Origin: Pelosinus sp. UFO1
Lineage (GTDB): Bacteria > Bacillota > Negativicutes > DSM-13327
Direction of reading: 5' to 3'
Assembly (NCBI RefSeq): GCF_000725345.1
Contig: NZ_CP008852.1
Location: forward strand, 2,385,693 to 2,449,692
DNA: 64,000 bases
A program made the translations under genes and the position numbers. Positions 51,161 through 57,232 of the stretch are shown in pieces. The number at the start of each line of letters is the position of its first letter. The stretch's first letter is position 1. Under the pieces are notes generated by a model. It was given only the letters and a program-made list of their open reading frames with translations, searched no databases and had not been told where the DNA came from.

Positions 51161-51325
51161 TCAGGAATCACAGGAATCACAAGAGTCACTGGAGTCGCAA
51201 GAATCACAAGAATCACAGGAGTCACTGGAGTCGCAAGAGTCGAAGGAGTCGCACTCGCACTCCCACTCGCATTTATGACACTTATGACACTTTTTACAAT
51301 CACGATTGGATTCAAAATCGTTCAT
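51161..51325 (-). CDS. Cysteine-aspartate-serine repeat protein
   Basis: 54 residues from the ATG at 51325 (AGAGGTG upstream). The N-terminal half MNDFESNRDCKKCHKCHKCE has a CxxCxxCxxC-like cluster with two histidines; the rest is a run of DSC, DSS and FDS units (CDSSDSCDSCDSCDSSDSCD) up to the last residue. The protein has 13 cysteines. The DNA repeats are 9-12 bp direct repeats that can expand and contract. Unrecognised; a metal-binding or spore-coat protein or peptide precursor is possible. The plus-strand frames here are shadows of the repeat. Confidence 0.65.
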   Translation of the reverse strand: MNDFESNRDCKKCHKCHKCEWECECDSFDSCDSSDSCDSCDSCDSSDSCDSCDS

Positions 51326-51432
51326 TTCTTCACCTCTTTTACACATTATTCTATATATAATATGTAATTTAAGTGAAAAGGCTCCTAACTATTTGATTCT
51401 TAACAAAACTGCCCCAGTACTGAGGGGAGAAC

Positions 51433-51534: not shown

Positions 51535-51687
51535 TTAATCACTAACGTACCTATTATATAAGTTCTTGGTAGCTAATGTAATAATAATAACTGAAACTAC
51601 TATATTGGGTATACTTACGCACCAAGAAGTTATTAGAGTATTTACCCCTGTCAAACCAATATTTAGCAAGGTTAAATAAAAAATCAT
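51535..51687 (-). CDS. 50-residue hydrophobic small protein
   Basis: MIFYLTLLNIGLTGVNTLIT then SWCVSIPNIVVSVIIITLAT and a short basic tail KNLYNRYVSD. It has two hydrophobic stretches, so probably membrane-embedded. TTGGAGGTG stands just upstream of the ATG and a terminator repeat follows. Too short for the usual gene callers. Function unknown; holin-like or toxin-like peptides are alternatives. Confidence 0.55.
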   Translation of the reverse strand: MIFYLTLLNIGLTGVNTLITSWCVSIPNIVVSVIIITLATKNLYNRYVSD

Positions 51688-56054: not shown

Positions 56055-56576
56055 ATGAGTAATCAGACGTTATTATGGGCAAGTTTCGTACTTTCTTGGT
56101 TATCTGTTCTTTTTCTAAAGAAAACAGAACTCAAACGTTATATGCCTGTTGCCTTGTTTGGCGGTCTTGTAGCCACGATTGTAATAGAGATGGGGATAAC
56201 TTTGCATTGGTGGGCGACTAAAGAAACTGTTTTCCCGCTTGTAAATATGCCGATATTTAATTATGGCTCTTTTCTTATCGGGATTATTTGGATTTTCAAG
56301 TTCACTTATAAACGCTTTTGGTTGTTTCTTGCCACAAACGCAGTTATTGACTTCATACTCACAGGTCCCATGGATAAATGGCTTGTCAATCGAGGCATTT
56401 TAGAGTTGTATGATATTACTAGTTTTCAATTGTTTCTTGTGGCTACTGGAAACGCCATCATCTTATATTGGTATCAACTTTGGCAGGAAGGCGATGCTAG
56501 TCCGTTTCAAATATTAAAATTTTCACAAAACGTACAACCTGTTGCCAGCAAGCCCCTTAAGGATAATGAGGATTAA
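56055..56576 (+). CDS. Four-to-five-TM membrane protein (CBO0543-like)
   Basis: 173 residues with hydrophobic stretches LLWASFVLSWLSVLFL, MPVALFGGLVATIVIEMGIT, FLIGIIWIFKF, FWLFLATNAVIDFILT and LFLVATGNAIILYWYQLWQ. The WW and YxF pattern fits the CBO0543 family of spore-former membrane proteins of unknown function. ATG start with GGGGTTG upstream. Confidence 0.6.
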   Translation: MSNQTLLWASFVLSWLSVLFLKKTELKRYMPVALFGGLVATIVIEMGITLHWWATKETVFPLVNMPIFNYGSFLIGIIWIFKFTYKRFWLFLATNAVIDFILTGPMDKWLVNRGILELYDITSFQLFLVATGNAIILYWYQLWQEGDASPFQILKFSQNVQPVASKPLKDNED

Positions 56577-56828: not shown

Positions 56829-56914
56829 TATGCTCGGCTAATCACTCTTATTTACCAAAGATCATATTATGTATAAATATCTTTCTATGAGCAATTAGGA
56901 GGTGATAGTATAAT

Positions 56915-57187
56915 ATGGATTATCATAAATGGGGAGATCCTGATATTGAAGAGTGGAGAGAAGACCTAAACGATAGAAATGAATTCGGACTAGGGTATAA
57001 TACTAGTGGTTATCGTCATTCTTGGTCATGCTGGCCTAGGCAAGACTGCTGGTATAATGATCATCATCATCAGTATAATGGTTGTTGGCCTAGATACTTC
57101 TGTTGGCCCAGACAGTCATGCTGGCCTAGAGGGAATTGTTGGCCTTGGAAAGCTTGTTGGCCTAGACAAGGTTGCTGTCCACGTTAG
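56915..57187 (+). CDS. Cys-Trp-Pro-Arg repeat protein
   Basis: 90 residues with AGGAGG 10 nt before the ATG. The N-terminal third (MDYHKWGDPDIEEWREDLND) is acidic; from about residue 38 the sequence is a chain of C-W-P-R/W units spaced by 3-7 residues (CWPRQDCWYNDHHHQY, GCWPRYFCWPRQSCWPRGNC, CWPRQGCCPR), nine to ten cysteines in all, with a histidine cluster. No signal peptide. Unrecognised. Disulfide-rich or metal-binding spore-coat-like, or a peptide precursor, are guesses. A terminator follows; GC and repeats suggest slippage-prone DNA. Confidence 0.7.
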   Translation: MDYHKWGDPDIEEWREDLNDRNEFGLGYNTSGYRHSWSCWPRQDCWYNDHHHQYNGCWPRYFCWPRQSCWPRGNCWPWKACWPRQGCCPR

Positions 57188-57210
57188 TATTCCATACTTA
57201 TTTACTATTA

Positions 57211-57232
57211 GAAAGCCTTCGGGCTTTTTCTT
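57211..57232 (+). terminator. Terminator behind the CWPR gene
   Basis: AAAGCC TTC GGGCTTT then TTCTTTTATTT. Confidence 0.85.

Follow-up and report, generated by a model that had tools for sequence, protein, structure and literature searches.

C-x-P repeat peptides of Pelosinus and their radical SAM/SPASM partner: a probable RiPP system with a sigma-K-like promoter

Introduction

The window analysed in this work is a stretch of 64,000 nucleotides from Pelosinus sp. UFO1 (positions 2,385,693-2,449,692 of the genome's single 5.1-Mb contig). The open reading frame (ORF) at 56915-57187 raises the question of whether a chain of CWPR units is a real protein and, if so, how it is processed and where it is used. 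A sequence-only reading of this DNA had described a 90-residue protein of CWPR units with a His spot, considered its Trp, Cys and Arg density extraordinary, and guessed at a heavily cross-linked or metal-loaded product and a spore-surface or metal function. The frame, its relatives across genomes, the enzyme encoded beside them, and their promoters are described here.

Results

The window ORF is a conserved gene with a leader and a repeat core

The protein is present as described, with 9 Cys and 11 Trp in 90 aa and a short HHH stretch placed between the first and second blocks. The features of the gene are as follows.

56842..56873, + strand: two-box promoter, TCAC (-35, 56842-56845), 17 nt, CATATTATGTA (-10, 56863-56873); boxes shared with most precursors that are not beside an enzyme gene
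56897..56905, + strand: ribosome-binding site AGGAGGTGA; read from the sequence
56915..57187, + strand: complete CxP-repeat precursor gene, ATG at 56915, stop ending at 57187, 90 aa; from translation, family and conservation
56915..57028, + strand: leader, residues 1-38, MDYHKWGDPDIEEWREDLNDRN..., holding W-x2-P-[ED]-[IM]-x-[ED]-W; from paralogue and homologue alignments
57029..57184, + strand: core, residues 39-90, with seven C-x-P motifs (CWPR, CWPW, CCPR); from translation, family rule and conservation
57210..57229, + strand: intrinsic-terminator-like hairpin and T-run

The ribosome site and the terminator that had been proposed are both among these features. Five of the seven C-x-P motifs are exact CWPR, one is CWPW and one is CCPR, and a degenerate CWYN is also present. 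Among the ORFs of the window, only 56915-57187 has at least four C-x-P motifs; no such ORF was found in 20 shuffles of the window or in 78 kb of control loci. The repeat part exhibits zero nonsynonymous differences among five Pelosinus-group orthologues (the window and four other genomes) at a dS of approximately 0.2-0.6. Since the repeat amino acids are constant while the silent sites differ, the comparison indicates that the frame is real and translated and that its repeat part is under purifying selection, which counters the untranslated frame that the sequence-only reading had named as a refutation. The other refutation it had named, a match to a known structural family, did not appear either. 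No Pfam or NCBIfam family, including any known spore coat or structural protein family, was identified for the ORF at E<=1. The Rfam search around the gene found nothing, and the sigma-70 promoter scan at the gene gave background level.

The window gene belongs to a family of six precursors

The composition is unusual, but the gene is not singular, as it is one of six family members in the genome (the window copy, L002, L003, L005, L006, and L120). All six genes encode a short W/E/D-rich leader (MDYxKWxDPEIEDW) followed by a C-x-P repeat core. The leader consensus from the alignments of paralogues and homologues is the motif listed above for the window copy. The core follows a rule: 671 of 701 Cys residues (96%) over 58 family members lie within C-x-P. 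Across the family, the position between Cys and Pro holds W, F, N, Y, R or S, and the residue after P is usually R. The sequence-only reading had caught the CWPR units but noticed neither the general C-x-P rule nor the leader, and neither the paralogues nor the promoter. The short precursor with a conserved leader and a variable, repeated core that characterises RiPPs is thus present. The CxP precursors fall into no Pfam or NCBIfam family; a formin match of one paralogue was rejected as low-complexity, and the other paralogues have no family.

Several further observations were made around these genes. In Pelosinus fermentans JBW45, the maturase-adjacent precursor (L062, 7279-7620, +) is apparently frame-shifted in its CWPR repeats and is read as two overlapping frames, by decay or sequencing error. 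In genome G022, a CxPR precursor is followed on the same strand by a second ORF with CMPDHECMPSCEPMP (L017, 813-1220 and 1345-1713, -). Two of the six precursor genes are preceded, at a distance of a few hundred bases, by genes for small membrane proteins that look alike and belong to no known family (window 56055-56576 and L005 2348-2935), and ORFs resembling the 56055-56576 neighbour flank the orthologues L009 and L011. This neighbour was considered as a part of the system in view of the look-alike at the L005 paralogue and was rejected, as nothing ties the ORF to the system.

A radical SAM/SPASM enzyme is encoded beside precursors of the family

The window copy is an orphan that is not adjacent to an enzyme gene. 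The maturase gene is located at a distance of approximately 0.74 Mb, next to a precursor copy of its own (L003), which starts approximately 30 nt behind this radical SAM/SPASM gene. In most Negativicutes loci, the next gene after the enzyme gene is a C-x-P precursor, so that the family exhibits the precursor-beside-enzyme arrangement of RiPPs. A modifying-enzyme gene near homologues, which had been suggested as a check, is found directly adjacent, and the enzyme contains radical SAM and SPASM parts and a predicted leader-recognition domain.

The radical SAM CxxxCxxC (C107, C111, and C114) and the seven SPASM cysteines (C314, C330, C369, C372, C378, C381, and C401) are invariant among 22 homologues and intact in the partner enzyme, for which Pfam matches were also obtained. 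The maturase scores under the cut-off of every curated NCBIfam model. The best-scoring model is grasp-with-spasm (TIGR04193; 111.9 bits against a cut-off of 175), and the scores are 79.5 bits against 300 for the SkfB model and 71.7 bits against 625 for the StsB model.

The AlphaFold model of the full-length maturase has a mean pLDDT of 73 with a weak C-terminal SPASM part. Its best solved structural matches are the RiPP maturases SkfB, SuiB, CteB, and TigE, of which SkfB is the closest. The N-terminal 95 aa modelled alone reached a pLDDT of 82.7. The best PDB matches of this domain are leader-bound RRE proteins (TbiB1, a lasso-peptide B1 protein, and PbtF) at modest E-values, the best being 1.2e-3, and Pfam PqqD gave no match in the maturase at E<=1. 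The domain is predicted from these models to have an RRE-like fold and was counted as the putative leader-recognition part of the enzyme.

The maturase locus lies in a conserved tig-clpP-clpX neighbourhood, and no ABC transporter, leader peptidase or immunity genes were found at the locus. No metal transporter or regulator travels with the system in the neighbourhoods read.

The named loci with the highest identity in the maturase family are from Pelosinus. Distant homologues of approximately 26-36% identity were identified in Clostridia, Proteobacteria, Bacteroidetes, Synergistaceae, and a Woesearchaeota genome among 28 loci, and 17 of these 28 distant radical SAM loci of other phyla have small C-x-P ORFs on the same strand. 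At one of these loci (L094, 4318-5951, +), a Tat-like RRDFLRKAGTAVVVGL signal is present on the Woesearchaeota C-x-P peptides encoded next to the maturase homologue and suggests that these peptides may be exported after modification.

The maturase co-occurs with precursors and with spoIVA

Among 40 genomes, 20 have both the maturase and a precursor, 16 have neither, and 4 are discordant (p=3e-7). Outside the own family, 11 have both, 16 have neither, and 3 are discordant (p=7e-6). The maturase also tracks the sporulation gene spoIVA across the class (21 genomes with both, 14 with neither, and 5 discordant among 40; p=3e-6). All three values come from Fisher tests that ignore shared ancestry and are indicative. 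For precursors, the discordant genomes are G007 (85% complete), where precursors were found and a maturase was not, and three genomes that have a maturase and no detected precursor. For spoIVA, the discordant genomes are G007, G014, and G032, which have spoIVA without the maturase, and G037 and G005, which have the maturase without spoIVA.

Precursors outside the enzyme operon share a promoter with sigma-K-like boxes

The pattern TCAC-N17-CATATTATGTA is common to the five precursors outside the enzyme operon, with a single mismatch in the second box of L005. It has a single match in the window. The whole-genome search with a 34-nt version at up to three mismatches yielded five sites and no more, each of them ahead of a CxP precursor, and its reversed control yielded 0 sites. 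This search used no protein input and revealed the sixth precursor, L120, which had been unseen earlier. In all loci read, AC-N15..18-CATANNAT[AG] is upstream of 36 of the 43 precursors that are not beside an enzyme gene and of none of the 25 directly behind one, as expected if the latter are transcribed along with the enzyme gene. In most families, separate AC-N16/17-CATATNATG boxes precede the enzyme gene itself.

Sigma-K promoters of C. difficile combine AC at -35 with a -10 of the CATA type, while its sigma-E promoters have ATA at -35 (PMC3789822). In a published sporulation signature (PMC10681294), yabG is the sole gene of the late mother-cell (sigma-K) stage. It was used as the sigma-K calibrator in place of CoatF; the CoatF genes of the genome have no clear copy of the boxes upstream, and no true dpaA gene was found to serve as calibrator. 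In Pelosinus, yabG has CATAGTATGTA at its own start and shares the -10 box with the precursors, and a suitably spaced AC box is present in only a part of the yabG promoters compared. In the precursor promoters, AC at -35 is separated by approximately 16-18 nt from a CATA-type -10, a likeness judged by eye and by the yabG comparison. With a -10 box shared with yabG and boxes that resemble the published sigma-K pattern, they are most simply read as late mother-cell promoters, and both the precursors and the maturase look like carriers of a sigma-K-type late-sporulation promoter. Cleavage by YabG at the Arg of each repeat was also considered and was dropped, as the published account gave no support.

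Similar boxes were seen at other small ORFs. A 61-aa, extremely Cys/His-rich ORF (MSVDSDRDCCHHHKKCSKCCRRC...; L126, G000:C1:1909788 region, +) has CATATTATGTA upstream, lies less than 2 kb from the L005 precursor and is another candidate spore protein. In the window, the only other ORF with a sigma-K-like promoter by the rule applied here is a 50-aa hydrophobic ORF (51535-51687, -) with AC-N17-CATATTATAATG upstream. The Ser-Asp-Cys repeat protein (51161-51346, -) has AGAGGTGAAG ahead of ATG 51325, which is the more likely start, and CATATTATATATA just upstream. The sequence-only reading had linked this protein to the CWPR protein. The protein has a CATATTATA -10-like box upstream, but no AC box lies at 16-18 nt and the sequence is unrelated to the CWPR family, so that the link is weak.

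Discussion

The proposed mechanism

The reading that we regard as likely is that the window gene encodes a RiPP precursor that is modified in trans by the radical SAM/SPASM maturase, expressed from a sigma-K-type promoter, and used in a product of the spore surface. The family, the leader/core split, the enzyme adjacency, the RRE-like fold of the model, the co-occurrence, and the shared promoter are established by computation. From here on we infer the modification of the peptide, the type of bond, the sigma-K dependence, and the spore location of the product.

In the proposed mechanism, one maturase would serve the six precursor genes in trans. Its N-terminal winged-helix (RRE-like) domain would hold the leader motif W-x2-P-E-x2-DW, and the radical enzyme would then act repeatedly along the C-x-P units. 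The most likely reaction would be a thioether from each Cys sulphur to a carbon of a nearby residue, since Cys and Pro do not vary whereas the residue between them does. The outcome would be a rigid cross-linked repeat that is irreversible by reduction. Sigma-K-type promoters would drive the maturase and the precursors late in the mother cell, and the resulting product would be deposited in the spore coat or exosporium. Such a placement would explain the absent export and peptidase genes; this absence and the tig-clpP-clpX neighbourhood fit a product that stays within the mother cell and serves on the spore surface. The product is thus probably a chemically cross-linked spore building block. 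Cross-linking, a guess in the sequence-only reading, is the favoured reading because a dedicated radical SAM/SPASM gene with a leader-recognition domain adjoins the homologues. Its guess of a spore-surface function gains from the sigma-K-like promoter and from a maturase that tracks sporulation.

Comparison with known systems

By its computable defining features, the CxP system appears to work like a radical-SAM RiPP. It resembles the systems of the sactipeptide/ranthipeptide SPASM maturases (SkfB, CteB, and TigE; StsB, TIGR04403) in having a radical SAM domain, a seven-Cys SPASM domain, and an N-terminal leader-binding domain, with a Cys-rich precursor adjoining the enzyme gene. The conservation of Cys favours a thioether of this type (to an alpha, beta or gamma carbon). 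However, the CxP system differs in that its C-x-P unit is repeated many times, a genome holds several orphan precursors, export genes are lacking, the promoter is of a sporulation type, and the enzyme passes no curated maturase model of this class. Grasp-with-spasm differs in that no ATP-grasp partner was found in the neighbourhoods read and the TIGR04193 cut-off is not reached. The TvgAB TVGG-repeat system is similar in that one SPASM enzyme modifies a repeat core again and again, but it converts Val to cyclopropylglycine, uses no Cys, and has peptidase/transporters and an oxygenase (PMC9062424).

Alternative explanations

The strongest alternative, which we still consider unlikely, is a RiPP with a three-residue cyclophane on W/F-P-R (Trp/Phe to Arg) instead of a Cys thioether. 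SPASM enzymes form cyclophane bonds on aromatic-X-(N/D/R/K) motifs, and the Pelosinus units are mostly aromatic-Pro-Arg. Aro-Xaa-Asn motifs for such bonds are discussed in PMC9062424. However, the middle residue is aromatic in only 417 of the 671 units of the Negativicutes family and is mostly D, S, G or N in the distant loci, so that Cys and Pro, not Trp, are common to the partners of the enzyme family. The aromatic-X-X acceptor of triceptides is not conserved in every core. A W/F-P-R cyclophane in Pelosinus alone is possible.

It is rather improbable that the protein is an ordinary Cys-rich coat protein of the CotY/CdeC type with disulphide or Tyr/Trp-oxidation crosslinks, and that the radical SAM enzyme modifies the adjacent copy only or something else. 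To our knowledge, CdeC and CdeM have no radical SAM partner. These Clostridioides exosporium/coat proteins are also small, Cys-rich and expressed late in the mother cell, but they have no leader and no C-x-P rule, and the likeness is a functional analogy only (PMC10681294). The sporulation-type promoter, the Cys-rich composition and the -10 box on other small Cys-rich ORFs such as L126 fit this explanation. However, the adjacent copy and the copies far from the enzyme gene carry the same leader motif, the maturase model includes an RRE-like domain, and precursor presence follows the maturase. Plain disulphide proteins also need no Pro two residues after Cys, as the C-x-P rule provides.

A small protein for metal storage or detoxification, modified or unmodified, that holds Cu, Zn or Fe-S through its Cys, His and Trp residues, is improbable to a still greater degree. 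The high Cys content, the HHH spot and the metal-rich soil habitat of Pelosinus (PMC6107796) are compatible with it, but the orthologues differ in the length and content of the His stretch and not in their CWPR units, the paralogues have no such stretch, C-x-P is not a usual metal motif, and no metal transporter or regulator accompanies the system. The least probable explanation is a secreted antimicrobial or signalling RiPP made in sporulation like the sporulation killing factor, since the closest solved structure (SkfB) and the spore-linked expression suggested by the promoter are set against a tig-clpP-clpX locus lacking ABC transporter, leader peptidase and immunity gene, and six parallel long-repeat copies are unlike a bacteriocin.

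Conclusions

The likely reading of a spore-surface RiPP would be new in its C-x-P repeat substrate, its single enzyme for several unlinked precursors, and its apparent sporulation control. No description of a CxP or Cys-Xaa-Pro radical-SAM system, of Pelosinus/Sporomusa RiPPs or of spore-coat RiPPs was found in the literature searched, which consisted mostly of non-subscription sources, and no report of a spore-building use of radical-SAM peptides was found in these sources. The C-x-P rule and the leader motif are precise enough for immediate testing.

For the wider proposal, the arguments seem to us evenly balanced: the system may be a developmental, structural class of radical-SAM RiPP, in which spore-forming Negativicutes build their spore surface partly from C-x-P repeat peptides with reduction-proof crosslinks made by one maturase that acts in trans on several gene copies. 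Other phyla and a Woesearchaeota archaeon may use such peptides with enzymes of the same family. If true, the system would offer a repeat-processing enzyme of possible use for rigid peptide materials, and a test of what makes the spore coats in non-model Firmicutes resistant to reducing agents. RiPPs have mostly been studied as secreted antibiotics, toxins or cofactors; in this sporulation-regulated, multi-copy repeat system, radical-SAM chemistry would be part of building a resistant cell structure.
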